From Mesodorylaimus sp. YZB2_4 (Eukaryota; Nematoda; Enoplea; Dorylaimida; Dorylaimidae), in assembly GCA_030248295.1 (NCBI GenBank), contig JASANH010001085.1, positions 62,001-126,000 of the forward strand: DNA of 64,000 nt, read 5' to 3'. Made by a program: the position numbers and the translations under genes. The notes beneath the pieces were generated by a model, which saw only the letters and a program-made list of their open reading frames with translations, ran no database searches and had not been told where the DNA came from. This document shows positions 277 to 58,575 of this stretch, one piece after another. Numbering within the stretch: the stretch's first letter is position 1; the number at the start of each line of letters is the position of its first letter.

Positions 277-2168
277 TAACTTCAAGCGACTCTGGCTGAT
301 CAGGTCGTTTTTGGGCAAACGTTAGCCCTCGTCTGGTATCCTTTCCCTGCCCTGGGTGAGGTGCAGTTCAGAGTCATTTCTGAGAATGATAGCTGCGTGA
401 TGCGGCCGAAACATCGATCGATCTATGTATCACTGTTCTAGCATCACAGTGCAAGTGCCCTTACATTGGCTTATGCAGCATATTTTTTTTTTGCCGCACA
501 ATGATATTCGCCAATCTAGCCACCGCAAAAATCTGGCCTTAGCTCAAAAAGACCGCCATCACATTGTTTGGAAAGGTAGGATGGTAGCATACTAAGACAA
601 TTTAGTTCAATATACCTGTTGGTGTTCCCCATCTAGGGATGCCATAAGACACATAGCACCCAATCTTGCATATCCTCTGTCACATTCACACATACGAGAT
701 TGCAAAGAAAATGGACACCAGCAATCTGGACCACTTTCAATGCACATCTCCTTCATATTGACATTTCTACGCGATACTCTCCCCATCCATCCAAGACATC
801 TCCCAAAAGTGTGCCTTTTATGGCGTCTGCTTATTACCAATTCCACTTTACAAAACGCCAATATTTCCAATGGGTGGTCGACGACGAGCAGCTGGCTTAC
901 TCTCGGGTGACTGGCTAGTGTGAATCTTATACCCCACTACGCCCGTGCCGTTTATGGCCAGGCCTCCCACCCACCACAGCCCAACACATCTCGCTGCCTG
1001 CCTACTTCGACGCTAGGTCAATAAATTATTTCGTCAAAACGAATCGTGTGTGCACCGCGTTTGGTTCCCTTCTTTCCTAGCATTCGTCCATATAAAGATC
1101 GTTGTTGCCTCTACCAAACTGCGCAAAACACTTTTCCTAGCCAGATCAAACGAGCATTTGGTGATGCGCGGTGCCAAAGGCGGATGCGAGTCATTGTAAC
1201 TGAAATGTTTCCTGTTCCGTGTCAGTCAGGCGAGAGTGAAATTCGTGCCTCGGACACGAAGAGACGAGTTTTCTACGACAGCTTGTTAGACTCACCACTG
1301 AGAAGCCATGCCATGCACCTTCGCTTCACACGAGACCTAGTAGTGCGGAAGGTAACTAAAGTCCGTGGCTTGGGCTAAATTAGCATGTTATCCAGGCAAA
1401 AATAGAAGCAGATGGTTGCCAAGGGTCTGATCGTGAGTGAGTACATGTCCGTAGGCTCGTCTTGACACCTCTCACTTGAGCAATCCTAAAGTTTTTAGGA
1501 AACGCTAAAAGAATTTCCCCTTCCATAAAAATCCTGTCAGAACCTTTTCATTGTTTAAAATTCTCTTGTGATTTGAAAACTTGGATGAAAATTTCAAGAA
1601 TTTTTAAAAAACCACTCAAAAATGTTTCTAGGGCTTCTTTTAAAGATTTCTCAGAAATAATGAAAAAACTCATTTTTGTTCACTAGCGCAATCAGAAATG
1701 TGTGTTCCGTTACATCGGCATGGTAACCCAGATTACATACCTTGTCATATTTTTCCACCAATTCGACCCGTTCTTGAAATTCTTGCACCACTTGTTCATC
1801 AACAGCGTCCTCGCCCTCGTTACCACTACTGCCACTGTCACCTGAAAAATATACATTGTATTTCAATATACAACATATTGCCAGAAAAAAAATTGCTGAT
1901 TTATAAACTGCAAGAATTTTGCGTTTTGTTGTTGAGTCAGTCGAATTCCTGCCAAAAAACGTTGTCTAAAAAAACGTCTTTAAAAAATCCCTCTGACGGG
2001 ATCTTTTCTCAGCGGGAAGGTTTCTTCAGTGCTCTTGCAGGATGTCACGTGTAAAAAATTGGGATTTTTCAAAAGGGATGCAAAGAAGCGTAAGCACAGC
2101 CTGGGATTAAAATCAGCAGACAGAGATCCATTATCGAGACGAGGAATCTGTGTCTGAGTCAAGAATTG
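277..2168. other. No gene recognised
   Basis: Both strands were read. Open frames here are short, lack recognisable domains and have no convincing splice context. 1500-1680 is A/T-rich low-complexity sequence. A short acidic minus-strand frame at 1651-1866 (Ser/Gly/Glu/Asp-rich) could be an exon but has no independent support. One exact copy of the dispersed 11-mer CTGATCGTGAG lies at 1427-1437. Confidence 0.4.
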
Positions 2169-2828
2169 CTATAGTCTCCTCTTAGGTATGGTTTCGCAGG
2201 TGGGAGAAAAACGTAGGAGTCGATCGATATTGGTCATAAATCGGTTCTTACTGGACGAATGTGATAAAATAGCAGATCGAAACGAAGCAACTCGATTTAC
2301 AACTTTACTAATGGCCAATTTAGTCTGTTGTTGCGTTTGAGAGATGGCGGCTGCTGGATTTGATCGAACTGAGGCTGCTCGTCGATGAGCGGCTGTAACT
2401 GCTTCGCCTAATCTTTCAGCGCTTTTCTCTCGTATCGATCGGCAAACACCGAAGACGCCCGATGCGATATCATCGACCAAATCTTCCACCACATTGACAG
2501 GGCCAATTTTCATGGTCGGCGACGTGCTGTCCGCTTGCGTGGATGGTGATGGCGAGACCGACAAGGATGGTGGTCCCCTAGGGGCCTCCGACATTTGCCT
2601 TTGTGTGTTTCGATGGTGTTGACGAAAGCTTCTGTATTGCAAAGCATTATTTGCCGCTGACAAGTTTGAGGTGGTCGTTAACGGCGATGGCGTACGTGGC
2701 GCACTGGCGGGGATGGTTGACGAGGATGTGGAGGCGTCGGTGGGAAACGATCCATTTACACCAATTCCACCACTCGGCACCTTCAACGATATCTGTCTAC
2801 TTATAAACGAATGCACGTCCTCCAACAT
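2169..2828 (-). CDS. Uncharacterised 219-aa Ser/Thr/Pro-rich protein, single exon
   Basis: I do not recognise this protein. The frame is open for 219 codons, and an in-frame stop (TAG) lies just upstream of the chosen ATG, so that ATG is the first available. Residues about 20-115 are Ser/Thr/Pro-rich and probably disordered. The C-terminal half (about 115-205) is basic, Ala-rich and probably helical (EDLVDDIASGVFGVCRSIRE, then AERLGEAVTAAHRRAAS), ending in KRRL. No signal peptide or membrane segment is visible. A TATAAA on the same strand at 2929-2934, about 100 bases upstream of the ATG, is a plausible core promoter and supports an independent short gene. It could instead be the last exon of a longer gene. 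Confidence 0.6.
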   Translation of the reverse strand: MLEDVHSFISRQISLKVPSGGIGVNGSFPTDASTSSSTIPASAPRTPSPLTTTSNLSAANNALQYRSFRQHHRNTQRQMSEAPRGPPSLSVSPSPSTQADSTSPTMKIGPVNVVEDLVDDIASGVFGVCRSIREKSAERLGEAVTAAHRRAASVRSNPAAAISQTQQQTKLAISKVVNRVASFRSAILSHSSSKNRFMTNIDRLLRFSPTCETIPKRRL

Positions 2829-2928
2829 TGTCCACTACGATATCGAAAATGGCGTGTTTCTAGTAAAAGTCGAACCAGAGATGCACTGCAGGTGATTCCA
2901 AGGGGAGAATTGTACGCCCCGATGGTCG

Positions 2929-3485: not shown

Positions 3486-3499
3486 TTAAAAAGGTGAAC

Positions 3500-5515: not shown

Positions 5516-6640
5516 GGGACCCAGATACTCACGGCCAATCCGGATCCCATCCGTTCGGATCGGATATCCGACCTGATCCGATCCGAAAAATCACCATCCG
5601 AAAATTCGGATCGGATCATCCGATCTGAACCATCCGTAGGCAAACAAAGAACAATCGCGCAATTTTTCTCCACTCTTTCTATAGTTAAATAAATGAGATG
5701 AGATCAATATTCTGCATTGATGCTTCCTCTTTTGCTCATGAATAGATTTACAAGTCATCTTCTCATTATTATTTGAGACCAGAGAAAAACATGGATGACA
5801 CACAAGGGAACATCGCCAACCGTCAAGTCGAACTTCACAAAACCAAGAATGTAATGTGTAGCCAGGCGCAAAGGAAAACTTTCTGCAAAATATCAGAGAC
5901 GTCTGGCCAACTGATCAGCGATGGCTCAAGTCTTGAGAATGTTTGAATTCTTGATATGGGACCCGTCCGTCAAGAAGAACGCGCAGGGTTTTTTCCAAAC
6001 TCGCTTTTTAGGTTTTGGACTTCGATTTTGAGCTTCGAACGCTCAAGTTTCGGTTTTCTCTCTCAGAGAGAATACCCAAATACCTCAAATACCCAAAAAC
6101 TCTAGATAAATTTAAAATTACCCTGAAATTAGGCACTGATCACTGCTGACCACTCGTCCAGATGCCCCCAATATTTCTCAGAGAGCTTTCTTTTACACCT
6201 GCAAACAAATTGCAATTTTTAGGTTTGTCAAGTTCGATGCAACGGCTTGCCTTTCCAAGTTTTGCAAATGTTTGGAGTTGTACGACTGAAATATTAGTGC
6301 GGAGTGGAAATCAAGTGAAAATATCAGTTTTTTATTAAAAAAAGTTGAAGTTGTCGTTGCAGTCATGTTCATATAAGCATCATGGATCTTCTTTACATTA
6401 TCAGCTTGTAAAGTACTTAATGTTGGGCAGATCCATGATGAGCTGTGTGGCAAGCTTTGAGAGGGGCGCTGCTTGTGGCATGGCACTGTGATAATAAAAT
6501 ATACTGTGTCTTCATCATGCCGAGCAACCTTTCGAAAAAAGTTCATGCGTCATTGATTGTTGAAAAAATTTCAAGTACCTTTTTCACATGATCCGATCCG
6601 AAATTTTTCCCATCTGATCCGATCCGATGCGGTCGTGACC
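5516..6640. repeat. GATCCGA-rich interspersed repeat fragments
   Basis: Dense ATCCGATCCGA-type strings occur at about 5540-5635 and again at 6588-6632, with unrelated A/T-rich sequence between them. Similar GATCGG/GATCCG strings recur at 25.28-25.67, 29.84-29.87, 45.38-45.59 and 53.65 kb, so they belong to a dispersed family. A 30-base block at about 5802-5838 (AAGGGAACATCGCCAACCGT) recurs at 47.70 kb and inverted at 14.84-14.88 kb. Confidence 0.5.
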
Positions 6641-6699: not shown

Positions 6700-9370
6700 C
6701 TGATACGGAGTAAGGAAACCACGTACACTGCCTCTCCACAGGCTAAACACACCCTACAAACACCCAAACTGCATCAGACACTCCAGCTGCCTTTGTAACA
6801 GCTGCACCCATCCAGTGTTGATAAGAACTTAAAAAAGACAACGGTAGACAAGATGTGATTTAGAGATACAGTATCTATATCTCACGATGATATAAATATG
6901 AATATCCAAATCATATCTTCTGAAAAGATATGAATAAATATTTATTTTGAGGTGCAGATTTCTGAAAGCTCAATCTCAAGATTTGATAAAAATCCAAAAA
7001 TTTGAGTGCCTTGACCAAGAAAACTTTGTTACTCTTCTCAGACACGGCTGGCTTACATTGGTTGCGACTATCGATCGAATTGGTCGCATACTTGTTAGCT
7101 TCCTTCAGCTGCAGAAGCTAATAGGTAAGAAGTCGATCAACGTCGATGGCCTGGCCAAGTGTACGGCTCCTAGCTGATGCAGCTTATCAATAGCTACACA
7201 CTCGCATTGCTGATATGTTCATTGAGGTACCTGTCAGACACTGTCTTCGAGAGTTTGGTGAGGGAAGAAACGAGCTTCCCAATGGTAAACATAAATTAGT
7301 AAACTGTTGGATTTTCAAACTATCATAATCAAAAGCTTTTAGACCAGTTAATGCATCTGTTCTCACAGCGGCTATCGACTTTTGAGGATGGTTTGTTCTC
7401 CCGGCCCTCTCGTAGAGTGCGTCTCACACACATATACGATGTCATACGCACAAGCACTCGTGGATGTTAGAATCGAAAGCACGATGAACAGCATGCAGGT
7501 GCTACAGCTGACGATGAGCCAACCGCACGAGCTCTTGCAGGTCAATAGGCGTCAATAGGCGTCTTACAATTAGCGACACTGGCAGCATCAGCCGCAAATT
7601 CAGTGTGAACAAAATGTGGAATTCTCGGCTGTGGTCAGCTAGCTCTCTCAGGTAGGTGCTGTAGCTCGGTTGGGCCTGCCAATGTGAACCCGCCTTTGGC
7701 AACGCGTCAACGTGCGCTTCTACACAAAATAATCTTCTTGAAAACATTGGAAAGTTTATGCCAAGCTTAGGCAAGTGATGCTCACATCCGTGCATTTTAG
7801 ATTTTTGCATGATTTTTAAATTTATATCTCAAGTGCATATCTTAGCTCCCAAAAGATAAGATGTAGACATAGATTTCAATATATCAACACTTAAGCCATG
7901 GCACACTGGCCTCAGGCTCACCTTAGGACGTACCAGATGAGGTCGTGTGGCACCTCTTACTAGGTCCAAGAAGACCATGTGCGCTGTCTTGCACTTCTCA
8001 ATTATTGCATTAGCAGGCGAGGCGCTTACAACATCTGTGGCTCCCATTGTTTGGCACTGATGCCCTATGACGGCACATGAACACTGTGATATTTTGAATG
8101 TAGAAGAGGGCAATGGAGGCAAGAAACCCGCAGGGCGACTTCAAAATAACCGATCAAATAGAGAATGCGCGGAGTTTTGGGAAAATTGGATCCGTGTGGG
8201 CCCGTGCTCATTTTTGGTCGTCCAGAATTATGATGGATGTTTATCGCCAACGCATTTCACCTGGCTAGATCGCGAGGAAGGCGCCCGCGAAGGATGTGGG
8301 GTTCACTGGGGAGGATTCACCTCGAGCGCGGCAAAGGTCAGATCTACTCGGACAACAGCCACGCGCGCGCCACACACCAACAGCTCGTGACCGTCCCCTC
8401 ATCAATGTGCCGAAGTAGTGCATTGTGGAAATGAAAGACATCCAACAAGTCTCCTGGACGTGCAGGAATGAGAGCATAGGCGTACACTGATATCCAATTT
8501 TTCTAAAACCTCAGCGCATTTTGGGTGTCCAGCATACGATTTTGGACACACATTGCACATCCAACTGCATCCATTTGGATGGGTTATGTTGAAGTCATAG
8601 TCAGTCAGTGATACATAAAATTACATGACACGCGGCAATGATTTTATCGCGAGCGGACTCGAAAATTTTTTTGGGTTCGAGCTGAGCGGAATCGACGACA
8701 TCGAGGACTCGCCAGTATCCCGCTATCGACGTATGGTTCAATAATGACCAGTTTTCCAACTCGGATTTTTCCACGAAATTTTAAAATCTGAGCCTCAGTC
8801 AGCCCATTCTCAAAATGCTTTTCGATTAAGTTTCGATAAACTTTAATAATCGGTTAAAAATCAGCCAGGAATCTCAAGATACAACTTCACATTTGACTCA
8901 CATATATTTTATTGAATAATATGTATATGCACTGATTTTTGATCACTTTTACTTTACCCTGCCATATCCATGCTGGGACAGAATATAGACAAGCACAGGC
9001 AATGTCTAAGCCAAAATTGAATTCCCCGCTGTAAAGCGCTTGTGGCAGTCTCACATATGAAACCTGTGTGCTAGTGACAGGCTTCCTAATTTATGGCCTC
9101 GGTTTTCTTTCAAAACTTGGCCAGAATTTGCTGCCTATTCTGTTCAAAGAAGCTTTCAAGAGCGGCACGCGCACAAGCTTTGAAGTGACGAGCTTTTCAT
9201 CTACTTTATGTAATGTATATTGGTTCAGATGTGAGCAGGATATCGTGTCGACAAACCATTCATATGCAGGATTGGACCTATTCATGTTGCCCCGTAGTCT
9301 CGTAACGGCCCCTAAGTTTGCCGAATACGCGCAGCTGCGTTTGCCGACATATTCTGTCGATAATTGTCCT
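6700..9370. other. No gene recognised
   Basis: Open frames are short on both strands and carry no recognisable domain or paired splice sites. A short direct duplication of GTCAATAGGC occurs at about 7540-7562. I see no RNA gene. Confidence 0.35.
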
Positions 9371-9427: not shown

Positions 9428-12400
9428 ATGACTCACGAAAGCGTCCTTGCTTTATTCCTAACTGTTGGATCCAAATATTTTCTAACGGTAAGGCCATGAT
9501 TTTATATAGTTTTTCAACTACTACTGAAACTGAGCGGGCCATCTGGTTGGTGAGAATGAGTGTGAAAGGCTTGGGTCTGAAGGTATCAGTCCTGATACAC
9601 TCAGCCAGAAAACATTCTCGAAGCGATGCCAGTGCCAAAAGAGCTTGACGTAGCCAATGGTCGACGTGAGTAGCGTGCGAGCAGAGAAGAATAGAAACCC
9701 GATTGACAGAAAGAAGGAATATTGCTGAGCTTGAATAGCCCCAACGTTGCCTCCTAGATGCCAGGCCGCACAACAGAGTCTCGAGCATTGGGGAGATCGA
9801 CGCTGGGACTCACGATCGGGGCATGCCGGGTGTGCAACAGTTCGAGAAATCGGTGGGGCACTGCTGGCGTAATGCTCTGCAGGGACGCGGGGCTACGGGT
9901 CCCATGTCGTGCCATACCTCATCCATAGCCAAGCACTATGCATTCACTCGAGGGCAAAGGAACACATGGGCTGACAATCATAATTTACCTAGGCGGCATC
10001 GAACCCTCCCCCATTAGTGTGCTCCCAGCGGAGAGACAGACGTCTACCCGTGAGGTCCTATACAGGCCGTGGCCTAGCGGGTCCATGTTAAAAGGATGTG
10101 TTGGCAAACAAGCAAGTCAGATGTTGACTGGTGTGAGCGCGAGGCCCCTGCAATATACATAATGTGCATCACAGGGCGCGAGACGCTGAAGACAACATGC
10201 TGGCATTCCAGTAGAGAAAAGGCGAGTAGGTCCTCTGAGCAACTACCACGCACTAAACAGGGCGTGGTGTAGCAGACGGGGGACATGATTCAATGCATTG
10301 CAGCAGCTACAGTAACTATTTGTTTCTTAGGCGCAGTCAGCAAAAGGTCCTTTGATTAATTTGGGGCAGCAAGCTGGTTATTTTCAAGGCGATATCCAAT
10401 TGCCATCGAAGGTAAGCAGCTTGCCCTCTCACAGTCCATCTGACCATGTGCAGTATGTCATTACTGTAGAATCGCAATGCTATTTTGCGAGCGAAAAGAT
10501 GGACGGATGGCATTGTCTATTATGACTTAGGGAACCAGTGGGGTAAGTGTAATTTATCAAATCTTGCGTCAGGTCTTTAAAGGTCACAAAAATTGTGTCT
10601 TAGAAAGGGTGAAAAGTGTGAAGGACTGTGAGCTTATTACTGCTCAGGCTGGTCGTGCATCATCAGCACAACTATTCGATTGTTCTGTAGGCCTGGTGAA
10701 ATGAGCCTTGCTAATTTCAGACAAAGATCAGTTAGCCATGATCAATGAGGCTATGGAAGCCATTGAGAAAAGTACCTGCATCCGCTTCAAACCTTGGACT
10801 AATGAAGCTAATTATGTCACCATTCGTAATACACGTGGTGGGTAAGTACAACTTTTGGGTTGTTAGGAAAAAAACAAAACAAAAAATGCCCAGATTGGAA
10901 TCAAGGTAAAACTGTCGGAAAGGAAAAACTTAAGATCCGAGCGGGAGTCGCACCCGTACCCTTGACTTTGAGCCCTTCCTAGCGGAATTAATCAACCCTA
11001 GTGGTATACACATGCTACCGTACTCTGCCTCATATGCACATGACAGTATTCATCCTATTTTCATGTCTTGCCGAATCATGAGCTCAGGTCTGTGTGCTCG
11101 AGGGTGAAGGAAAACTGTGAAGTAGCACTCCTAACGCAAGTCACAGGTATAACCACAGATCTCATTGCAGCTGTTTCTCGACGGGCGCTGGTATGCAAGG
11201 CGGGGTGCAGCAAATTTCGCTACAAGATGACGAAAGCAGTTCTTGCTTTTCGCATGGCATAATTGTGCACGAATTACTGCATTGCATTGGCCTGTGGCAT
11301 GAACAATCACGCCACGATCGAGACGACCATATCACCATCCATTGGGAGAACCTCTTCAACAGTAAGTATAGCTATGATTAGTGTAATGTAAAACGTGAGT
11401 TTCTTCCATCGACGCAGCAAAAACTGTGCTCTCCCCCTTTTCTGTGAGACAGCCTCTGATAAAGCAACTAACGCGTACCAACAGCCAAACCCCAGTGGTC
11501 TCACGTTCAGCACAAGCAACACAGCCCAGGTCTCCTTCCACTCAAATTGGGCCCGGCCCCCCCCCCGCCCCCCCCCCCCCACAAAAACCCCCCCCCACGC
11601 AACTTAAGCCACAAAAAGGTCTATAAGTCATTACAGAAAACCAAAGTTAGCTGCAAAATTCAATTTTTCGTAATGGATGAAAGCGGACATATTCGCTCCT
11701 TTGCTCAAAATTTATCACAAAAGACCCAAAAAGACCCTCAAAACAAATATTCTCAAATAAATAAAAGGACTCTCTCAAACTAGAGTATGGGAGCTGACAC
11801 AGATTGATACAGTACTGCAGTGCATTGAATATGGTTTAGGGGAGATGGAAAACAGGGCTCAATGAGCGATGACTAAATGGTAAGTGGCAATTAATCGATT
11901 GGCATGGTCAGCACAAGCAAGCAGAAATATCGTGCATGACACATGACAGCAGAAGACACAGCAGGTGAGAGGACAACCAAGTTCTTGGACCTCGCCATGG
12001 CTCTTCATTCCAGTGATCCTTAAACGAGGCTCATGTAATCTCACAGCAAAGTAGCAAAAACAGCCCGCAGGCAGATTGCCTATGACTGACCCCGGCACGG
12101 CCTCAGGCTGGCCTGTTCTCCCTGTGGGAATGACCTCGATTGCATGACTTGCACCACACATTCAGGCCATGTTATACTACACTCTCCGAGCCAGGCTTCT
12201 TCACATGTTTCAGAACATTTAAACCCCGATTTTTAGGTAGCACTATTCGTTGGCAGTTTCGTAAGATACCAGAAACAGAGAGCAGCACGTACGGCATCCC
12301 GTATAATTACCTGAGCATCATGCACTACGACGCCTTCACTGCCGCCATCAACGCAGGGGTCACCATGGAACCCAAGGACAAGGCGTATTTGTACGAGATC

Positions 12401-12899
12401 GGAAATCAAGCTTACGGGCATGAACTGGACTGGGAGAAAGTCAGACGTATTTATGAATGCAAAGGAACATACACACCAGCACCCACAACTCCAGGTAACC
12501 ATCCAGGTGGGGTACCAGCAGACTACCACTTACCTTGTTTTCCAGTGCCTTGTGAGGACAGCATCGGCTACTGCGCCACATACCTGGATCAATGTGGGAA
12601 AGCACTGTGGACCATATCGTCATGTCGCAAAACATGCGGTTTCTGTCGTGGTTCAACATCACAGGGCCCTGAGCCGACGGAAAAACCAACTTGAACATCG
12701 CCACCGACAACAACTCAGTCACTAGCACCGACTTCTCCTCGTATGTCCGCCCAGTCGCTCCCCAACTTCCTAGATTTAACATTTCCGCTTTGTAGAAAAA
12801 TGCGAAGATCTGATCAGCTACTGTCGCGACTACACGCACGCGTGCGGCAAAGAAGGATGGACGGAGAGGGCTTGCAGGAAGACGTGCAGATTGTGCTGA
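9428..12899 (+). CDS. Astacin-family zinc metalloprotease with two C-terminal ShKT domains; in-frame TGA between them
   Basis: Secreted M12A peptidase. Exons: 9428-9487, 10331-10411, 10470-10542, 10721-10841, 11171-11361, 12237-12494, 12546-12740, 12796-12899. All joins keep frame and use GT/AG. Exon 1 encodes a hydrophobic leader (MTHESVLALFLTVGSKYFLT). Exon 2 carries propeptide sequence ending FQGDIQLPSK. NRNAILRAKRW marks the start of the mature domain. The zinc site is HELLHCIGLWHEQSRHDRD (His145, Glu146, His149, His155), and the Met-turn is SIMHY (Met204, Tyr206). Two six-Cys ShKT domains follow (exons 6 and 7) around a Thr/Pro linker. A TGA at 12692-12694, codon 311, sits in that linker, while frame, donor and second ShKT remain intact downstream. 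Either the protein ends after one ShKT (310 aa) or the TGA is a recent nonsense change. The catalytic domain looks functional. Substrate is unknown. Confidence 0.85.
10944..10954 (-). repeat. tRNA-like B box (SINE relic) in an astacin intron
   Basis: GGTGCGACTCC on the minus strand resembles a tRNA B box (GGTTCGANTCC) and lies in the intron 10842-11170. No well-formed tRNA can be folded around it, so it is most likely a degraded tRNA-derived SINE. Confidence 0.35.
11557..11596 (+). repeat. Poly-C cluster
   Basis: C10-G-C13, then an A-rich spacer and C9, inside the large intron between the zinc-site and Met-turn exons of the astacin gene. A similar C/A block occurs at 47875-47905. Confidence 0.85.
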
Positions 12900-13315
12900 T
12901 CGTGAGTGATGCGCGATTGATCGAAACAACGCCCCACTTTTACAGCGTTCCGACGGGAAAATGCTATGATTAGTGGACTGACTGGTTTCTAGTCAGTAAA
13001 CAACTGATCTGATATGATTTATTCCCTTAGCCAAACGAGCTTGCGCTAAAATGCGGGACACATGAACGCGTGACACTAAACGGAGAGTTCTTTGCCTATG
13101 TTTAAAATAGGCAAAGAGCCGCAGGATTGAGCCATTTGCGGGTTCTGCCAGCTTCCTGCAGCGAAGAGGTCTAACCTAGAGAACAATTTGTGAAGAAAGA
13201 TAGAGCACGTATGCTATATTTGCGATTGCATTCCTACGATGACAGGAAGTCATATGACACCTTACTGCAAATACCGAAATAGAATCCTGTGTAACCAGCA
13301 TTTTTGGCAGTCGGA

Positions 13316-13420: not shown

Positions 13421-14452
13421 GGATTTTGAGCAAACGAATTTTCGAGTTTGCATTTTCTGGATTCTGTTTCAGCCTTCGAAGCAACTCCAGCATGTTACGG
13501 GGTACACATGCATGTTTCCACATGCATCAGCCATTCATGCGTGAATGGTATCATGCTGTGCGCAACGATACTATGCAACCACCCTGGAGCCTATGACGTG
13601 TTGCGACATTTGCTGCTTGAAATTCTTGGAGGGCGTAGCTAGGGCGGTTAGCTTTAATGCCAGGAAGTAAAAGAGCCAGGAAGTAAAAGAACGGTTACTT
13701 ACTGTAGGTTGGATGGGCGGTCTCTCTCGCTTTATTCGACTCACGCAGTTGTTTCCTGAATTCTTTGTAAGCCCCTCTGAACTACCGCTCACGTATTTCG
13801 CTTGGTAATGTTGCAAATTAACATTACTTGTCATGCTGACCAAGCATCAGGGACGGTCGGTAGCCCCTCTGGTTAATGCCGCAAGCGTCCACGAGTTGAC
13901 TCTAAGGTAGGCGTGCAGTGCTTGGTTTGTCCGCGAGTGTCTATGGGCGAGTTTAGCGCTGTTGAGACATCGTTGCATAAAATGCTTTGGTCCTCACTGC
14001 ATCTACAGGGCTGGGCGTATTTGATCAGCAGCCAAATCTGCAACAAAGCAGTTTCATCGACCGTGGAGGGGGTGCTCACGATCAGCATAAACGCCTGTGA
14101 GGTTCTCAACAGGCATCTTATTGTCAGCAATCGATACCCTGCAGGGTAAGCCTTCCTGTCAGACCCGCTCGCTTTTTAGCAGCCCAAGCCCGCTACCTCG
14201 ATCATCGTACGCCACAACACTCGGTAGAAACTGCATTGAGGCACCCGCTTGGGCACTCAGTGACCCCTTCGAGGCATGGGCGCATTACGATGACTGTGAC
14301 GTTCTCCACACATGTTGACCGCATCTGTGGACTGTGTGCCAGTTGAAACAGTGCACGAACATGGCGCCACTCGTGCAGTACCCCATTTAGTTTAATATTC
14401 ATTCATTTTGAGAGCGGTGAGGAAATTCCTACATTGCACAGCCTTTCTTGCC

Positions 14453-14460: not shown

Positions 14461-14989
14461 CATGCACTGTGTTGCACCTATGTCTGGGCGACAGTAACTG
14501 AACACAATTCTTGCGTGTGCAACTGAATCAACAACACGTTTCACAAAGACACGAGGAGTTTTAGAGTGTGATCAGTCAACGAAACTAGCGAAATCGGTAC
14601 TGCCTGCACTTCACTGTACTATACTATACATTCGTAAGAAAGCTTCTCGTAAGGGTAGTCAAGTGCAATGTCCAATTGCTACATTTGTTCCCTATTGCGT
14701 ATCGCTGCGTTGTCATTGTCAACAGTGAGTACACGAAATGGAATTAAAAAATTCCAAGTTATTCTCCAAAAAGACGTCTCAAATATTTCGCACAGAGGTT
14801 TCTTTTGGCCCTAAGAGCATAATAAAATTTTTTGTTTTCCAAAATTCGACTTAACGGTTGGCGATGTTCTTTTGTGAGACAAGAAATACGGATTAAGAAG
14901 AGGACATTAGCCCAATCTATCGTCGCCATCGTTAGAAAAGAGTGCGCGGACAAATTTTTTAGTTTAGCTCGAGCTGCTTGTATCGGCGC

Positions 14990-29620: not shown

Positions 29621-30599
29621 AGCTCTTATCGTTAGCGGAACTGTGAAAAAGAAATCAAAGAATACTTTATTGTACCTGCTCATGCATTTTATGATTCATG
29701 CCTTAGTATGGCGCGATGAGGATTTAGGGTTGGCTGCACAAAGCTTAATTTATATGGTGGCCTGTCATCAAATTCACTCCACGTGACATGCCAGCACAGT
29801 CTACTGTTACGAATCTTCAGAAACGGCTAACGGCCGGATCAGATGCTGGTTTTTTGGATAGGATCGGATCGGAAGGGCCGTAAGAAACAGCGATTGCCAT
29901 TCTCACGATATGACATTTTCGCGTATAAGATTTGTGCCAATACTGTGCGCTGCAGATCCAAGTGCCAGTTGCAGCTCGGGCATATATTCATCTTCGACTT
30001 TCAACAGATCTTAACCCTTCCCTGGTCCAATTTGTGGATCTCAAAAATCACTAGATTTTATTCAGCTGAAAATTCCATTTAAAACCTGATGCTCCACCAG
30101 TTTTCATTTAGGAAATAAGATTGTCGAAAATTTTGAGAAAGGAGACAGGCATTTTACATCAGAGTACGTTAAATCTACAGTCCAGCAGGGCCGAAGTATC
30201 TCACACTCGTCTCGCACAGGAGAGTGACCTTCACAATCTTCTGGTTTCATTTTTTAAGAATTAATATATTTTAATCTGCGCCCGCTCGAGATTTTAAACA
30301 AAATCGTAACTCTTTACGAAAAGTCGATCTGCTAGTCGACCAATTTTGTGATTCAAAGTCAATATGCCGCAAGAATATTCATATTTAGCCATACAACTTG
30401 CGCCAACCGCAACCCCCACAATAAAGGTTTTTAAAGAAAATTTTAGGTTCGTTTCCAAGCACCTGGTATTTTTAAACTTAAAAACTTACTTACCAACGAA
30501 AATGATCGAAATAATTTTTTGTACCATTTCGTCGAGTTGAGCCTGAAATTGTGGAACTTTCAAACATATAAAGACAAGAAGAAAATTACTTTTCAAGAC

Positions 30600-30830
30600 T
30601 CACGATCAGTTTAAGGCTAGTGTTTTTGAAAACTTGTAAGACTTGGCGGAGGGAGGATTGAAAATTCCTTAGCGCCAGGACGACAAAAATGCGTGGGGGA
30701 TCCAGTTTGTAAAACGGGAGATTTACGACAAACAGAAACTCGTCATTTTCTTTGCGCGAACGCCTTCTTTGGCGGATATACGAGGGCAACTGTTGGCAAA
30801 ATGAATCTTCAGTGGGTGTACTTGACATAT
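30600..30830 (-). CDS. Candidate exon of an unrecognised minus-strand gene
   Basis: An open stretch beginning MSSTPTEDSFCQQLPSYI and continuing through a basic RQRRRSRKEND segment to FLFVVNLPFYKLDPPRIFVV. It ends at ACTGATC followed by GTGAGT, a good donor. That donor coincides with one of the nine copies of the dispersed 11-mer. No domain is recognised and no downstream exon could be joined confidently. Confidence 0.3.
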
Positions 30831-35550: not shown

Positions 35551-35559
35551 CTGGGTCCA

Positions 35560-37560: not shown

Positions 37561-37568
37561 CTCCGCTG

Positions 37569-41000: not shown

Positions 41001-41172
41001 TAAACTCGGTTTGACGTATAAAAAGGGTTATTTCGTTGAAAATCTGTTCACCGATGAGAAATTGGGAGTGATGTACCCTCAAGATCAGTTCAAAACTAAG
41101 GTCAATCCAACTGGAGTCGTCATGCTGAAACTAACCATTGTGACGAAAGCTGAGTCATTTGTCCGAGAATAA
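38029..41172 (+). CDS. Alpha-N-acetylgalactosaminidase-like glycoside hydrolase (GH27), array copy 1
   Basis: Eight exons: 38029-38344, 38399-38421 (23 nt), 38481-38655, 39243-39319, 39375-39554, 40191-40388, 40444-40548, 40975-41172. They join to 423 residues with no stop. A signal peptide ([12 protein letters not shown]) targets it for secretion or the lysosome. Galactose-binding Asp82-Asp83 lie in DDCW. The nucleophile is Asp160 in LKLDGC, and the acid/base is Asp221 in RNYDDI. The specificity loop reads SCSWPAYE: Ser192 and Ala195 match the NAGAL type (human GLA has Glu and Leu there), so it should accept alpha-GalNAc. GKWNDPDM closes the barrel, and the last two exons form the beta domain. 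Exon 2 uses an AAG acceptor. This is the only copy with all expected catalytic residues unchanged. Confidence 0.9.
38740..38826. repeat. Fragment of the CGGCTGA TIR element in intron 3 of copy 1
   Basis: GTCAGCTCGGCAGATCAGCC followed by GATGTGCAATTTGGACGCCGC matches, inverted, the left end of the elements at 17.2 and 44.8 kb. Confidence 0.5.
39630..39860. repeat. TA-rich low-complexity block in intron 5 of copy 1
   Basis: TATATA/TATGTA-rich sequence with ATGAGATAGTAT repeats. It is present only in copy 1 and explains the longer intron. Confidence 0.7.
40710..40770 (+). repeat. tRNA-like SINE relic in intron 7 of copy 1
   Basis: B box GGTTCGATTCC at 40749-40759 follows a GGATAGACGG start. 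The same intron of copy 2 has GGTACGAGTCC at 47368-47378. Copies 3 and 4 keep degenerate versions (GCCGAGTCTC, GTCGAGTCTC). The insertion therefore predates the duplications. No functional tRNA fold is seen. Confidence 0.6.
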
Positions 41173-42179: not shown

Positions 42180-42840
42180 GATATTTCTCGTATCAAAAAA
42201 ATATTTGCAATAACATGCACTGTTTCCATGATTATCGGGGAAAAATAATTTAGAATACAGGGCGTCAACGTTGGCTGCTTGGAACGCTTGAGCTGTTCAG
42301 TGGATGCGCAGCGAAATAGAATGAAAACGACAGAATAATTGACTGCATTCTTATCCTACTTTTTTCCATAACATTTTAGGTTCTTTTCGAGATAACGCAG
42401 CTAATCAACAACAAGCAGCACACTTGCAACAGGCAACCTTGCTTCACACCCAGGCGCTAGGGATTCGAAAAAAAACGCCGCCTTTGGCATTCAAAGATCA
42501 TGTGCCAGGCGACTGAAGACCAGTATCTCTATATGACTGGGATAAGAACTCACGATCAGTGCGAGTAAGCATACAGTGCGAACCTCCCACTGATCGTGAG
42601 CTCTTTCGACTTACCGCTGTCTTTCGCGCTTTTGGATTTGGCTGTCATCGCTTACGGTTTGAGAGCGCTAGTTTAATCTTCAGGCGTTCAAGTGCCAAAA
42701 CCGATTTCAGCGGAGGGGGCGAGCTCTGCTGCTTGCTTACATTTTCATAGGGCATGGGGCAGAGAAGTTACAAAATGGTTTAAAAGCTTGCTGAGCACAA
42801 AAATTTTAGCGAACTTGTCTTTTTAGGTGCACTCAGATCC
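42180..42840 (+). promoter_or_regulatory. Conserved upstream block of hydrolase copy 2
   Basis: A block with GACTGCATTCTTA, ACATTTTAGG and GATAACGCAGCTAAT is shared by copies 2, 3 (about 50845-50990), 4 (about 57885-58010) and the fifth remnant (about 61600-62095). It includes the TATA-like CTATATGACTGG and a pyrimidine-rich TTTTTAG 14 bases before the ATG. Copy 2 alone has a 13-bp inverted repeat here (42549-42561 and 42588-42600) built from the dispersed 11-mer. Confidence 0.55.
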
Positions 42841-45800: not shown

Positions 45801-47648
45801 GCTTTTACACGTTTGCAGATATCATACATATAAAAACAAACAAAAAACAGCTGATCAAAGCTAAAGCTAATTTAGTGGCTAGCTAGTATTTTTTCCTGGG
45901 CTCGCACCTGTTTCGCTAATAGCTGGCTGGCAAGCTGCAGTCAAACCTTAAAAGCGGAGTGGTGTGGGAGAGGGTAGCGAACACAGGAGCGTGTAGCGCC
46001 CTCCCACCAGTGCGTCTTCGCTGGGTGCACCTCCACATGAGGGCATCTTGAACCAGACACCGACTGCCTCGACAATGGCGGGTAGGGTGAACCCTGTCAT
46101 TGTTTGAGAGCCGCGACTGGCAGCTCGTTTGGCCAGTCTTCACTGATCGTGAGATAACCTCAGTGGTACTCACTATCAGTGGAGGTTATGGGCTCGCACC
46201 GATCACCGTCCATACGCTGAACCCAAGCCACAGTGCTACTTATCAAGTCGGAAACAAATACACGAATGCTAAACCACTGCACAACCGCGGCCACGACTTG
46301 CTAGCGTTTTTATGAAGCCAGTCTTATTCCAGCGCATAATATACGTGTTAGAAACCTCTTCTAACTATAAAAGTGCAATTTTTTCGCCTTTCAGCCTATG
46401 AGAAATTCGGCCAATATCTTATCGAACATGGGCGTCCAATGGTTCTTTCCTGTGGTTTGCCAAAATATGAAGTAAGACCAGCCCCTACGTTTTTCGAAAG
46501 TCTTTCGCAACATCTTCATTTTTAGATTGACTTTGGTAGAAAACCAGATTATTCTAAAGTCAGCGCGTTATGCAATATGTGGCGAAACACTGATGACGTT
46601 TGGTTGGGTTGGTCGTCTGTGCAGGGCATCATTAATTGGTACGATCACAACCATGACACCGTAGCTTCTGTGCATGGACCTGGAAAATGGAATGATCCAG
46701 ATTCGGTATGTGTGGAGTTGAAATTTGGATAACAGTGCTGCATTACTATTCTGCAACTCAAAAAAACTGTGCAATATGGAGAAACAGAGAGTTTCGAGAA
46801 GCCAAAAAATAAAACGAAATTTTTTTCTAGATCATCGTGGGCAGTTACAGACTGACGGTGGATCAATCGCAGGCTCAGATGGCCATTTGGTCGATCTGGT
46901 CAGCCCCGCTGATCATGTCCAACGATCTTCGCAATATCGGCGATGAGTACAAGGAAATTCTGCTAAACCGCAAAGTGATCGCGGTCGACCAGGACCCGCT
47001 GGGAATAATGGGACGACTAGTCTACAATGTGAGTTGAATTGAGTGAAAAAGGGTCGTGGCCTGACAATCGTTTGAATTGCAGACGACTAACTATGGATTC
47101 TATGTGAAACCAATGACACCTGTCGACACTCAAACTGGTGATCACTCGTTTGCCATAGTACTCTTCAATAGAAACTCAGTAGAGCGGGTACGATGGTCAG
47201 AACTTGACACGATATTGTGCATGCCGCGCAAGGATTTTTAAGATTCCACCTGTTTCACGGCATTTCTAACATCTCATAGGAAAAAAAATAACATTTGCAT
47301 ACACAATAGAAACAGGAAAGGATAGGAAAGGATAGGCAGTGCATATTACCAGCAACTCTATGTAGTAGGTACGAGTCCCTCTCAGAGCAAGAGTTTTTTT
47401 AAACTTTTTATCCACTACCTTTTGACTTCTTCAATATTTTCATCCACCTAAGCTAATATTGTTTTCAGGTCAATGCTTCTGCTTTCTGTAGAATCCAACT
47501 GAACCTATTTCACGAGAAGGGTTACATCATGGAGAACCTATTCACAGGTGAGAATCACGGAAAGATGTTACCAAACCCTGAATGTGTGATACACTCTCTG
47601 GTCAATCCAACTGGAGTCGTCATGCTCAAACTGACCGTTGTGACATAG
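42841..47648 (+). CDS. GH27 alpha-galactosidase/NAGAL-like hydrolase, array copy 2
   Basis: Same eight-exon plan: 42841-43156, 43209-43231, 43287-43458, 46395-46471, 46526-46705, 46831-47028, 47083-47187, 47469-47648, giving 416 residues. Signal peptide and DDCW are present. The nucleophile motif is IRADSC (Asp159) instead of LKLDGC: the substrate-contacting Lys is Arg and Gly is Ser. The acid/base Asp220 in RNTDDV is kept. The specificity loop reads SCGLPKYE, with Gly191 and Lys194, matching neither NAGAL (Ser/Ala) nor GLA (Glu/Leu). Intron 3 is 2.9 kb and contains a mariner remnant, two TIR/foldback elements and a SINE. All joins are in frame, so it is probably expressed, but substrate preference is likely altered. 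Confidence 0.87.
43795..43925. mobile_element. Family A repeat in foldback form
   Basis: Two family A 5' ends meet head to head. GGCGAGTGGGAGAGAGTAAT, then CTCCCCTGGCTGG, is mirrored by CCAGCCAGGGGAG and ATTACACTCTCCCACTCGC, a near-perfect inverted repeat of about 60 bases around a short centre. It lies at the 3' end of the mariner remnant. Confidence 0.75.
43926..44815 (-). pseudogene. Mariner/Tc1-type transposase remnant
   Basis: Minus-strand frames broken by stops and frameshifts retain order typical of a mariner/Tc1 transposase. The N-terminal HTH linker region contains SPGRPRS. A FSDEEMFDLDG-type first catalytic Asp segment lies at about 44420. PLNSPDLNPSD, with the last catalytic Asp, lies at about 44090. 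The chain is split into at least four frames, so it is inactive. A TIR element adjoins its 5' end and a family A foldback its 3' end, so its own termini are not identified. Confidence 0.75.
44826..44958. mobile_element. TIR element (MITE-like), CGGCTGA-rich family
   Basis: Perfect 17-bp terminal inverted repeats: CACATTGCACCTCGGCT at 44826-44842 and its reverse complement at 44942-44958. The interior is made of CAGCCGAGC/GCTCGGCTG palindromes. No coding capacity. Confidence 0.8.
45346..45357 (+). repeat. Poly-G tract (12)
   Basis: Twelve G, then AGGG, in intron 3 of hydrolase copy 2. Confidence 0.85.
45380..45594. mobile_element. GATCGG-rich TIR element, copy 2
   Basis: Perfect 17-bp TIRs: CCAGCATCGACCGATCC at the left and GGATCGGTCGATGCTGG at the right. 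The interior is saturated with GATCGG/GATCCG. About 215 bases, non-coding. Confidence 0.75.
45889..46117 (-). repeat. tRNA-derived SINE, truncated copy 3
   Basis: Matches the body and tail of the SINE at 17885-18285 in the same orientation (CGACTGCCTCGACAATGGC, GAGGGCATCTTGAACCAG, TAATAGCTGGCTGGCAAGCT). The tRNA head is missing. Confidence 0.65.
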
Positions 47649-50560
47649 ATCGGGGCATCCGCCCCAGAACAAGATTTTGATTTTATAGGCTGACAAGGGA
47701 ACATCGCTAACCGTTAAGTCGAATTTTGGAAAACCAAAAATTGTGACATGTACAAAAGTACAAAAGAAAGCTCACAAAAAAGGCGTCTGCCAACGTCAGC
47801 GTCAGCGAAGAGACAAAATCAAATATCCAGCAAAAAACCCCAACCCAAAACAACCCCACCCAAAAAAAAACTTTCCCCCCCCCCAAAAAAAACCCCCCCC
47901 CCCCCACGCCTCTAATATTTTGCACATAGCTTTCTTTGCACACAGGAACAAACAAGTCTCAAAGTTCCGGTGGCAGTCCTGAGTTCTTATGGAATAACCT
48001 TTGATTATTCTACGCGTCCTTTGCTGATAGGAAATTTTTCACTTTGACATTGTCTGGCAGTTGGGCTGGCGAGTTTGCTAATTAATTTCAAGGCAAAACA
48101 AGTTGCGCTGGAAAAAATCATTTTAAATAAATCAGTCATCAGACAACAAAAAGGTTTACCTAGGAACCGAACTCCAACCAAATTCAAGGCTTGGCTAATT
48201 TGGCAGGGCTTCCTCGGCGAACACAGGGTTCTCAGCAGCTTGATGTGATGGATTCAAAGGAGGTTTTAAAGGATTTAGAGCAGAATGCTGCAAGATTTAA
48301 AGGAGATTTTGAACACATTTTTTTGGCCTAACTGTACACATAAGTAATTTTTTAAATCCTGAAGTTTCTCTTTTACTCTACCCAGCATGCTACATTTAAT
48401 CCAACCCAATAAGTATGAGAATGGGTTGCACATAAGTAAATCCTACTCATCCCTTAAAGCCCAGCACCTTACGATCTGCCCCTAGGTGTGGATTCCGAGT
48501 CAGACCGGATCGGAATCGGGGCGGAATCAGCAGGATAATGCTGATCTGACAGAAGAAATATAATTTTCCGACTATAGTTTGCTCATGTGGACTCATGTTG
48601 GCACTACTATTCGTCGTTCCCAAACTGCTTCGCCTTGTCGCAGTCACTCTCTGTCAGACATTAGAAAGGACACAGGAGAGCTAAACAGCGCCTGAATCGG
48701 ATGATGCTGATCTGACAGAAGAAATTGAATTTTCCGACAATAGTTTGCCAACTGATGTAACGCCGAAAATTTTATTGGCTGATCTGGTCGTTTCAGCAAC
48801 AGGGTAAGATCGAGAACCGATCCACCCCCCTTCCAGATCGGTAGATCAGCCAACGATTCATGCCCGCTTAGTGAGGGTCCAAACAAGCTCGTTTCTTTGC
48901 TGCTCCTTAAGAATGGGTCGTGATATGGATCCACTTCAGCTTAAGAACCCTCCTGATCCCGACCTTTAGGCATCGGGACTGTGCATAAATAATAAGGCAA
49001 AAGCACGCTAGCCTGGAAGCTATATTGTCTGTTTGTCATTGTCTATAGCAGCTCTTTGCCCCATCCTGGGGTGGGAGCAAAGCCGAATGGCTAATCTATG
49101 CTTACCTTTGTTTAGGCCAACATGCTCGAGAAGGCTATATTTTTTCGTGGTATACCTTACGTACGTTCCGGTTGCGTGCACTGTATGTGCAAAAAAATAC
49201 ACCTCATCATTCTACTCCTGCACTCGCCGTGAATGGAGTTTTCGAACCTAAAGCTCGTAGGCACACACCCTTTGTTCCTGAACATGGCTGCTGCTTCTAA
49301 CCAGTTCTCACCAATCTTTTTAAGACGTATATACCTTCTCTCCTTTAGAGAAATCACAAAAATTCGCTTTCGTTTGCTTTGAGTATTCTTTCGCCTTACC
49401 TGCTCTTGTTCCTTCCATGCCAGTCCATTGCGTATTGGTGAGGACAGGAGGTGGAAATCAGATCTCCGCGTGGTCCATGTGGAATCGTAGTGGATCCACG
49501 TCAACATGGAACGCACATGGAGTGGTTCTAGGTCAAAAGCCACGATGGATCCTTTTATTAGACACAAGATCAGGTCGGGTTGAACCCGACGGGTACCCAG
49601 CCCGACCCGAAATCCCTGACCTGAAATTTCGGGTCAGGTTGACCCGAATTCGCTACAGCAGCTGAAGTTCCTTGAGATAAAAACCTTGCACAAATCGTCC
49701 TTGCCATCCTCCGTCGGAATAGAACCTCGGCCTCCCAGTCAGGCTTGCGCGCCAGAAAGACGGATCAACGCCTAAATCAGCTGAGCCATCGCCTCCCAAC
49801 TTTTCCCTTTCGGATCAGATGCCATTCCAGTTGGGAATAAGAGTCCTGATGAACCCGAAATTGCGTTATCGAGAATGAACGACCGAGGAGAAGAGAAGAC
49901 AAAAAGTTTTGAAGGTTTGAACGCGCACTACTAGTGAAGATAAAAGGTGTTTTTTTGTCATCAAAAGTCTAAAAATTTGCTGTGGTCGACCATTGGCCGC
50001 TACCCCTCCTCCGACCGCAGCTGACCACTTTTTGCCAACCCCCTCCCCCCTTAGGCTGCGGTCGACCTTTATGGATGGCCCCATAACTATGTAAGCTAAC
50101 TGTGCGCGCCAAGTCCAAAGTGCTCATTCAAGTGCGTAAACTGTTAACACGAATTTTGTTGCATCCGCATCAAAACAGGGGGGGGGGGGGGAATAAAACT
50201 CGAACATTTTCCAGAAGCCATTATAAAAAGATAGACAGCCTGAAGCTTACCAACAAGTACCGCTAACTTCGTTTATTTCAATACTTCTCTTCCTGTATTC
50301 ATTCCACTCATAGCCAAAGTCAATCAAAATGCACTATATCTTCCTCTTCAACCTCGTCTTCATCATCTGACTCTTCAAGGAAGACATTTTCTATCACGCT
50401 AACACTCATATCCTTCACATTTTCCACACCTGATGATTTTGTGCGGTAATTTAAATTCGTCCCCGGGGAAGTATTCCCAGAGGGGGAGAATAAAGTTCAA
50501 TCGGAGTCTAGACGGGGGAGAATGACCAGAGGGGGAGAATTTAGAGGAAGTACGCCAACC
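47649..50560. other. Intergenic region between copies 2 and 3
   Basis: The 3' flank of copy 2 (about 48000-48160) matches flanks of the other copies. A poly-C/A block lies at 47875-47905, GATC-rich strings at 48480-48860, a tRNA-like SINE head at 49716-49788 (minus; B box GGTTCTATTCC, A box TGGCTCAGCTGA), and a poly-G tract at 50178-50191. Near 50323-50430 (minus) a short acidic tail (EESDDEDEVEEEDIVHFD) resembles the end of a transposon protein. GGGGGAGAAT occurs three times at about 50475-50541. Confidence 0.45.
50178..50191 (+). repeat. Poly-G tract (14)
   Basis: Fourteen consecutive G in the intergenic region. Confidence 0.9.
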
Positions 50561-53925: not shown

Positions 53926-55151
53926 ACGAGCCTCTCCACCGCTTGGTAGAAACGCTAGAGCATTTCCCACTTGACTTACGGGTAGTATCAGGCTTGATCA
54001 ATATGACAATATCAGTGATCAGTATCAGTGGAGACATGCCCATCCAGACGATCAGCGATACCGTAGATCAGACAGCAAATTCTTCGACAGCGAACTCTGG
54101 CAGGAAAATACGCTGTAGAGAGCGAACTGTCTTGGACAAATGAGCTACTCTTCAGTACTGTTCCTTACCTGAAGTGTAATAAAGACAAACCCATCCAAAG
54201 TACTGTTGCGAGACCTAGGGACCGCTCCTAAAGACGTGCACCCTGCGCTACTGTAGGGGGGATGGTTAAGGGGGAAGGATGGTGTGGAGGCTGGCGCCCA
54301 GAGTACGAGTAGGTCCACATTTGAAAATTGCTGCGAGATCTGTACGTTCAAAAAATAGCGAAATTATCACGACGAGGTTCTTGAAAGGTCGACCCATACG
54401 AATCTTGACTTGCCGAGTAAAAATTTTGGCCGATGATTTTTTGCGCTCACGATCAGTATTGAGTACTCCATGAGTAAATGATGATGCAAAAGTCAAGAAT
54501 GTTTTTCATCCAACTCTCTCTTTCCCTTGACCTTGGAATGATCTCGAATATATCGTAATGACCACAAAATGATAAGCTATCGAATGGTTTTTTGAAAATT
54601 TTCTTTGCATGTGTTTCCGTTTGTGAAGTATTCCTGCAAAACTACAGTCAAAATTCAATATTTTTAGCACGTGCAAATAACTGAAAATAAAAACCGAAAC
54701 CCCTTCATCTCAACATTCCGCCACATGTATTTCTGGGCATCCTGCTTTCAGAAAATATATGTATGTTATATGGTATACATTGCCTTTAACTCTTGGGGTC
54801 AAAGTCGCAAAAATCCAGAAAAATTACCTTGTAATATATTAATTAAGACGCTATACCTCGTATAAAGCATTTCTCAAGTGAACTATTGCTGCAGCTCTTG
54901 GACTGCAAGGACCATTCGCGTCTGCCACAAAAGCGTGTGCGCGGTCGCAGACCCTCAAAAACACTCGTTATCTGTCACTCACTACCCCGAAGAGCACAGG
55001 GACCATCAGTACCTAGCGCAGGATTTGATAACAATGTGAGATATGCCTCAAAGCTGAGAGACATTGTGGGGGGGGGGGGGACATTAGACTTTCGCAAGAA
55101 ATCACAACGCTCTAACTATGAGAACACTACTGTACATTTTCACCTTTTAAG
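53926..55151. other. Rest of intron 3 of copy 3
   Basis: Contains one exact 11-mer CTCACGATCAG (54446-54456) and a poly-G tract (55068-55080). No gene recognised; short frames are not supported. Confidence 0.5.
55068..55080 (+). repeat. Poly-G tract (13)
   Basis: Thirteen consecutive G, about 70 bases before exon 4 of copy 3. Confidence 0.9.
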
Positions 55152-56413: not shown

Positions 56414-57565
56414 ATCGCGACATTCGTCCGACAAGATTCTGATTCCATGGACTGGGCTTTAATAATTTTTATAACCTCCGATCATTTTATGGCGGAAAAA
56501 GGCTTTACAAGTTGCCATTGTCTTGCAACGTGGATAAGTGATTATGCTCGATTAAAAACAAAGGAAAACTTTTTGAGCGGATGAATCATTTCTAAAAAGT
56601 CTCTTATCACAAGGAAAAGGTCGGCCCAGCCACCGAAGAAAAGAAGAAACTCAAAACTCAAATATTGCAGAAAACTCAAATTCGGCAAGAGGCTGCTGTA
56701 CGAGCCTTTTTAAATTCCCCGCTCGCGCGCCGTTTGTGACATAATAGCGGTTTGGGCTGCTTACTCTTGGAATCGCTTGTAAATTTATAATTTATCTTAT
56801 ATTTCACGAAGAACAACGTATAGTAGAGTGCAAAGAAAACGTACAGTAGATAGGCACCGACCTAGACAGTCACAGACTCAGCACGCCATTTTATTCTCGC
56901 ATCGTCAGGCTAGGCCACAAAACTCTTTAATTGTAAACTGCTGGAAAAGAGCAATGCAAACCCACCAGACTCCCCCTTAAATGATCACACCCCCTTGCGG
57001 TCAATTCTCTTTCATCGATTATGTATGCGATCTGATTAAAAATTGGAAATCGGAAATCAAAAATCGGATCAAAAATCGATTATGCGATCCGATCAAAAAT
57101 CGAACATAAGATTTATACCCGTTTTGTAGAGCTCGAAATTCTCTACAATTTTCATATCGGGTTTGAGGGCGGTCGTCGCTGAAAATTTCGAGAACATAGG
57201 CGAAAACCGTTTTCCCACGTTAAAGAAATTATCCATTATCTAAGGATCGGATGAGAAATAAAAAATTATTATAGAGCATTCTTATCGAGGAAAAGTTCTT
57301 ATATAATGCATTCTTATAGAGCTCGAAATTCTCTACAATTTTCGTATCGGGCTCGAGGATGGTCATCGCTAAAAATTTCGAGAAAATCGACGAAAACCGG
57401 TCTTCCTGTGTCAAAAAGAAGTCACGGACGGACGGATGGACTTTTGGCTTCTATAGTATTATAGATTGAACGTTACTAATTCACTCGGCTCCTGTCACTT
57501 TCCACTTCATCGAGTTCCCCATTCAGCTCAAATGATAGAAACGCTATTTTGTGAGCAAAAGACAT
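56414..57565. other. Intergenic region between copies 3 and 4
   Basis: The copy 3 3' flank is followed by A/T-rich sequence with a GATC/AAAATCG cluster (about 57020-57110) and a duplicated block (GAGCTCGAAATTCTCTACAA at about 57127 and 57318). No gene. Confidence 0.5.
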
Positions 57566-58575
57566 TGTGTAAATGACACTTTCGTCTACCCATGGCCAGA
57601 AATTCAATTCAATTCACCATAATTTCTGTCCTTATTGTCTTCTAAAAAAGTGAGTGCCGTACATCTGGCATTCTTGCTTGACTTTATTCGTACTCGTGTC
57701 CACATCGGTGCTGGAATCTGGTTCCATTGGAGGTTGGCTTTATCGACTTTACAAGCTGCCACTGACGAAACAGTTGTATTACGTAACATACACTTTTTCA
57801 AGGATTTTCGTGATTCTAGTAATTAATAAAGAGCGTGAACCAGTGCTGTGTGGAAGGCCTGAGCCGTTCGACGGATGCGCAACGAAATGGAATAAAAACA
57901 ACACAATATAATTGACTACATTCTTATCCTGGGTTTTTTAAACATTTTTAGGCTTCCTTCTCGAGACAACGCAGCTAATCAACAACCAGCAGTTGAAGCA
58001 GGTCACAGCTCGGCGGTAGGAACTCGAAAAAACGCCGCCCTATGGCATTAAAAGACCCTGTCTTCAGGCGGTCCACACAACAGTATCTCCATATGAGTGG
58101 TTCAGAAAAAGGTGAGGAGGCAGTGCGAGTGGCTCTTCAACTCTTTCGTAATAGCTGGTTCGACTTACTGGTGTCTTTCGCTCTTTTCGATTTGGTTGTC
58201 ATCGCTTCCTGCTCGAGAGCGCTATTTGAAAGTCCAGGCATTTTTAGACGCGGTTTCTGTTAGGGTCGACCAATACCGCGGTATGTTATGTATTTTAAAA
58301 GGGAGTGGGTGAGGAATATTTTTGATTTTTGTGTCACCATAAACTCAGGGGTACTTACTACTGCGCACAAAGCATACTTGGCAAGTTAAATTGGTCGGTT
58401 CCTGAGAAAATTTTTCCACCTAGCGCTTCTGCGCAAGGAGGAAGCTGCTTCCTCTTGCTTGTTACATTTTCATGGAGTATGGTAAAAAAAATCAAAAAAT
58501 GATTTCAGGTTTGCTGACAACAAAAATTTTAACAAGCTCGTTTTTCTAGGTGCATTCCAACTCACGATCAGACAC

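Follow-up and report, generated by a model that had tools for sequence, protein, structure and literature searches.

The window analysed here, a whole 64,000-nucleotide stretch of the nematode Mesodorylaimus sp. YZB2_4 (JASANH010001085.1, positions 62,001 to 126,000; G000:C66:62001-126000 in an assembly of 145 Mb and 1,067 contigs), holds from about 38000 to 62000 an array in which paralogous stretches surround alpha-galactosidase-like (Melibiase_2) frames and, along its length, nine exact copies of an 11-mer, CTGATCGTGAG, whose origin is our subject. All nine had been reported by a first-pass annotation of this DNA and were recovered, as was a near copy at 9809; a second near copy starts at 46169 and not at 46172, and further one-mismatch copies lie at 11500 and 41078. 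The resulting 13 matches with at most one mismatch compare with a shuffle mean of 0.83, none of 100 shuffles reaching 13, and among all 11-mers of the window only poly-C ranks above the word. Genome-wide we counted 3,478 exact copies against 46 of the reversed word as control, and 11,150 against 1,857 when one mismatch was allowed (exact copies included). A count near expectation, which the annotation had proposed would speak against the word, is thus not what the assembly gives, and the word stands. The window is also locally enriched, its nine copies comparing with about 1.5 predicted from the genome average.

The word proved to belong to a set, C[TXA]TCG[TXA]G, where X stands for any base so long as it is identical on both sides. 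Alongside the X=G form, the assembly contains 1,980 copies with X=C (CTCATCGTCAG; control 58), 1,661 with X=T (CTTATCGTTAG; control 57) and 1,790 with X=A (CTAATCGTAAG; control 102), together 8,909 matched forms against 263 controls. All sixteen forms of CTNATCGTNAG come to 11,183 (control 988), leaving 2,274 for the twelve unmatched ones to share; the mean per form is 2,227 when matched, 190 when unmatched and 62 for the reversed control. Two-mismatch variants of the word likewise have positions 3 and 9 altered jointly. Because these positions vary together, the word can be described as TXA duplicated around TCG, set in the palindromic CTNAG.

Spacing and flanks were examined in a 282-kb sample, consisting of the window and loci L001, L002 and L009-L032 and partly picked around the motif (26 of its 35 exact copies came in as listed matches). 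The studied word is the top 11-mer there among those seen at least eight times, with 35 copies against 0.21 expected. Counting on both strands, sites with a spacing of 3 are matched in 174 cases and unmatched in 94, a matched share of 0.65 that compares with about 0.42 at most at spacings 0-2 and 4-12; by insert, TCG/CGA contributes 45 of the spacing-3 sites and TTG/CAA 9. The 35 exact copies have unrelated flanks, with six-base flanks that all differ, an argument against descent from a few large families. Their neighbouring bases (A15 G10 T9 C1 at -1; T17 C9 A8 G1 at +1) show C avoided before the word and G after it, a symmetric bias that fits a palindromic target.

A transposon with matching ends resides in the same assembly, where a DDE_1 search returned 16 matches, 12 loci being fetched and scanned. 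At L041 (141-3300) lies an element of 3,160 bp reading C, TTA, CGAGGGAGGTCT ... AGACCTCCCTCG, TTA, G, that is, ends of the type CGAGGGAGG...CCTCCCTCG bordered by TNA duplications in CTNAG. Its terminal inverted repeats are identical over the first 12 bp and 77.5% identical across 169 aligned columns, and its 576-aa frame matches Transp_Tc5_C (PF04236, 2.5e-11) and DDE_1 (PF03184, 2.2e-8), both passing the cut-off, with a sub-threshold similarity to HTH_Tnp_Tc5 (PF03221, E 0.0062, 16.9 bits against a cut-off of 22.2). Across about 2.3 kb, L042, L043 and L044 are 96-98.6% identical to this element, and further pieces align at 92-95%. Genome matches to CTNACGAGGGAGG number 19 (control 9), 11 of which continue as this element family, forming five pairs and one single end; in four of the five pairs (C271, C126, C156, C779) the TNA copies match, the C126 member being a miniature inverted-repeat transposable element (MITE) of 234 bp. 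The bases left between the TNA copies correspond to element termini, TCG to ...CCCTCG and TTG to ...CCCTTG.

We consider it very likely that nearly all copies are excision footprints, or scars, of Tc4/Tc5-like cut-and-paste transposons, joined end to end. Insertion into CTNAG duplicates TNA, as seen for the elements in the assembly; at excision, the transposase would place its cut in one strand three bases into the element, giving each flank a 3-nt CGA overhang, a cut suggested by the product and by the description of mariner-like elements, for which excerpts of PMC4561436 report a staggered cut inside the element. End joining would then retain one overhang and both TNA copies, yielding C-TNA-TCG-TNA-G for a net gain of 6 bp, where product and length change are seen and the repair pathway is proposed. 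Elements ending in CGAGGG... would in this way leave TCG scars, and a given position should be found in one of three states: CTNAG, CTNATCGTNAG/CTNACGATNAG, or occupied by an element. The retention of both target duplications that marks an excision footprint is seen in the X=X match of 8,909 of 11,183 forms; the duplication is TNA within CTNAG, not the TA of TA-target Tc1/mariner elements.

The TTG inserts point to a second class of element. At L021 (8115-8525) a MITE reads C-TAA-CAAGGGAGCATC...GATGTTCCCTTG-TAA-G, CAAGGG-ended and set in CTAAG; three degraded relatives of it occur in the window, and such ends predict TTG scars. The TTG form, CTNATTGTNAG, occurs 5,652 times genome-wide (control 719), and X matches in 70 of the 100 matches listed, which would extrapolate to about 4,000. 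CAAGGG-ended elements most likely gave these scars, and part of them could be decayed TCG scars. CpG decay as their general source was rejected, as it should produce TCA equally (control form CTNATCATNAG) and the 282-kb sample, to which the TCA evidence is confined, has nine matched TTG sites and no matched TCA.

Empty sites were sought among repeat copies. For the repeat at L017 3820, all 30 relatives among the matches listed were fetched: the scar is exact in 18 and point-mutated in 9, two (L084, L093) have a bare CTGAG and are shorter by exactly 6 bp, and the remaining one has a larger deletion. With 27 of 30 scarred, amplification of a repeat can evidently copy a scar along with it, and the 3,478 copies thus include some that do not stand for events of their own. 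At the 58561 scar (CTGATCGTGAG), paralogues near 51.5 and 42.9 kb read CTGAG at the aligned place; the 'ACTCAGA' context that the first-pass annotation had noticed in two paralogues does exist and holds CTGAG on the other strand, the uninserted target. Its suggestion that a very short sequence had been inserted therefore survives as a 6-bp gain in CTGAG; for the templated conversion that it also offered, end joining is the better explanation. A candidate parent repeat, CTTACGAGGTTGGATCAGG (L010, L013), was discarded because homology continues through its supposed end.

Several observations weigh against the excision account. The two L017-family relatives may owe their bare CTGAG to a later deletion, by slippage from one TGA repeat to the other; the alignments at 58561 contain other small indels, and the paralogue near 38 kb shows no clean CTNAG at the aligned place; for 42549/42590, the aligned paralogues offer no clean CTNAG empty site. 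At the L030 scar three fetched relatives are 6 bp shorter, reading GTAAG instead of CTAAG, and among 11 fetched relatives of the repeat holding the L002 copy eight read CTGATCGGGAG, two show other variants and the exact word appears once. Because CTGATCGGGAG prevails there, the L002 copy may not be a true scar; it could have arisen by chance through point mutation, or be what decay has left of an old scar. In the examined assembly data no site was found both occupied and excised, the L041 family shows just 11 ends beside 8,909 scars, and its C748 end pair has unlike copies, TGA and TTA. Our pattern counts, moreover, detect the canonical product only, so that messy excisions escape them. The four forms are also uneven: the counts for X=A and X=T differ little, and X=G exceeds X=C 1.76-fold (3,478 against 1,980), an asymmetry that needs explaining since CTGAG and CTCAG are one site on opposite strands. 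Repeat amplification was rejected as its source in view of the 35 exact copies, all different in their six-base flanks; of 26 sites searched (26 of the 32 in their loci), at least two matched elsewhere, with 40 of 642 candidates scored.

Other origins were weighed against this evidence. A selected site for a DNA-binding protein—a promoter, insulator or pairing motif at thousands of places—would suit the sharp edges of the 11 bp and the unrelated flanks of the 35 examined copies, and a protein-binding site had been among the annotation's readings; yet positions 3 and 9 are free to take any base and must nonetheless match, which indicates duplication rather than a recognition sequence, and the assembly does contain elements with precisely such ends and duplications. 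The strong U6 gene, too, has no copy at one mismatch or fewer within its 3.1-kb locus, with three two-mismatch words downstream, and we regard selection for binding as scarcely credible. On that same L029 locus, a single gene, a promoter-type motif (PSE or piRNA Ruby-like) was set aside. The splice-donor role proposed from the GTGAG core finds no support either, GTGAG being part of the second target copy and its place being taken in the other classes by GTAAG, GTTAG and GTCAG. An assembly or consensus artefact, which the annotation had also left open, could draw on the odd G-runs in two fetched element stretches (L049, L061), but the unrelated flanks, the occurrence of point-mutated scars and the diverged repeat copies that share one scar make it appear unlikely in the extreme.

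Two further possibilities keep the transposition machinery. In one, the same transposase would have made abortive or very short insertions with no full element ever present, which would account for scars that far outnumber intact ends and for a search (E up to 1e-4) that found nothing matching the CGA-ended element in the window, L001, L002 and L009-L032. Every cut-and-paste move can leave a scar, however, and the divergence of about 8% per site, obtained from unmatched against matched forms, leaves ample time for scars to build up and elements to disappear, so we judge abortive insertion very improbable. Footprints of a PIF/Harbinger-type element such as NuwaII would share the target, C|TNA|G in the excerpted account of PMC4482050, with a different transposase group; the element whose ends match carries Tc5 C-terminal and DDE_1 domains, although no search was aimed at PIF-type transposases, and PIF/Tourist elements generally excise precisely according to passages of PMC4561436, which together leave this origin highly improbable. 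As for the word being a mobile micro-sequence, excision of Tc4/Tc5-like elements makes it the immobile residue of a larger transposon.

The footprints of the window and the MITE remnants found in it are collected below. The inverted pairs noted by the first-pass annotation are real, exact at 42549/42590 and one mismatch apart at 46143/46169; these opposite-orientation scars fall within about 50 bp (42549-42600) and 40 bp (46143-46179), with clustering in the 42-59 kb array, and are best read as neighbouring independent scars.

Table. Putative excision footprints and MITE remnants in the window.
Feature	Position	Strand	Match or context
Footprint, TGA-TCG-TGA class (X=G)	1427..1437	+	exact
Degraded CAAGGG-ended MITE	5803..6236	.	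kin of L021 8115-8525 MITE
Footprint CTCATCGTCAG (X=C)	7508..7518	-	
Footprint CTAATTGTAAG, TTG type	7563..7573	-	as expected of CAA-ended elements
Possible decayed footprint CCGATCGTGAG	9809..9819	-	one mismatch
Possible decayed footprint CTGAACGTGAG	11500..11510	-	one mismatch
Footprint X=G	12896..12906	+	exact
Footprint X=G	14075..14085	-	exact
Partial CAAGGG-ended MITE	14772..14878	.	right end then TGA-G
Footprint CTTATCGTTAG (X=T)	28932..28942	-	
Footprint CTTATCGTTAG (X=T)	29625..29635	+	
Footprint X=G	30599..30609	-	exact
Footprint CTAATTGTAAG, TTG type	38774..38784	-	
Possible decayed footprint CTGATCTTGAG	41078..41088	-	one mismatch
Footprint X=G	42549..42559	-	exact; alpha-galactosidase-like array
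Footprint X=G	42590..42600	+	exact; opposite orientation, 41 bp from 42549 copy
Footprint X=G	46143..46153	+	exact
Possible decayed footprint CTGATAGTGAG	46169..46179	-	one mismatch
Degraded CAAGGG-ended MITE	47690..47950	.	C-TGA before left end
Footprint X=G	54446..54456	-	exact
Footprint X=G	58561..58571	-	exact; just upstream of ATG, alpha-galactosidase-like frame

The window's other genes include a 7TM receptor with Srx similarity and an astacin with ShK, probably of ecdysozoan type; the window has no Rfam match at gathering thresholds and no tRNA by ARAGORN. Elsewhere, a scar at L019 4783-4793 lies directly before GTAAG, where an exon may end, and might affect splicing, and a U6-like match runs at its end into the L030 scar. 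U6 gave four matches, one strong (L029, 100.7 bits), in the best 48 of 9,806 candidates scored, and one strong gene among them seems few for an animal genome. Within the transposase frame of L041 itself, at 2724-2734, sits a scar of the element's own type, in frame as Ser-Arg-Ser and also present in L042, L043 and L044; the 6-bp gain can thus be carried in coding sequence. Finally, CTACAGTA, GTACTGTA and similar 8-mers are over-represented in the 282-kb sample, with mostly different flanks. TAC(A/T)GTA is the expected footprint of Tc1/mariner elements with CAG ends, and a second footprint system may accordingly be present.

Systems of this kind are already known; what stands out is the abundance of scars and the scarcity of intact parent elements. 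Tc5 duplicates TNA within CTNAG. Tc4, in C. elegans and tardigrades, has the target C|TNA|G and the same TNA duplication, as excerpts of PMC11071193 describe. The family found here resembles both in its CTNAG target with TNA duplication, in its DDE_1 and Tc5 C-terminal domains and in its terminal inverted repeats, and differs in its CGAGGGAGG ends. Footprints of mariner and Stowaway elements likewise keep both target copies and a few terminal element bases, in the quoted parts of PMC4561436, a likeness that extends to Tc1/mariner elements in general. By contrast with Tc1, which in the C. elegans soma typically leaves +4 (PMC13148408, in extract), and with Passer, whose excision leaves 0 to 4 bp (PMC9976928, in extract), the product here is +6, made up of a 3-bp duplication and 3 terminal element bases, and recurs thousands of times within a single assembly. 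A genome-wide survey in rice similarly read excision products from genome sequence, and in the portion cited (PMC4423477) 8 of 94 excisions left just two target copies, the rest deletions or filler; here one canonical product recurs thousands of times, in a pattern search blind to messy ones. Titles and the beginnings of abstracts among the papers listed, with subscription journals thinly covered, yielded no treatment of Tc4/Tc5 footprints and no report of such scars as a leading k-mer; six papers containing the literal 11-mer and one with its reverse complement look, from the same parts of their text, like lists of primer sequences.

How many events the scars record can be gauged roughly. Whereas unmatched forms put divergence at about 8% per site, the one-mismatch counts put it at about 13%, a figure that CpG decay and TTG forms may inflate; allowing for decay, the scars would originally have numbered about 22,000 to 42,000. 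In C. elegans, according to excerpts of PMC13148408, homologous recombination is the primary route of repair for germline transposon breaks and puts the element back, and somatic breaks undergo non-homologous end joining (NHEJ). Heritable end-joining scars in the thousands suggest a germline repair habit unlike that of C. elegans, with much end joining. A bolder proposal, which we hold to be speculative and rather unlikely, is that end joining is the germline's regular way of mending transposon breaks, coupled to the transposase and usually yielding the same 3-nt product, and that some twenty thousand events or more became fixed while the element stayed at very low copy; if true, the genome would harbour a genome-wide, frame-preserving 6-bp insertion mutagen.

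A k-mer that resembles a regulatory motif thus most likely consists of what departing transposons left behind, and can mislead motif discovery. Although some were amplified with repeats, the same scars allow past transposition to be counted even after the elements themselves have gone, and their +6 product preserves reading frames. Being heritable, they make the question of how the germline repairs transposon breaks testable from sequence.

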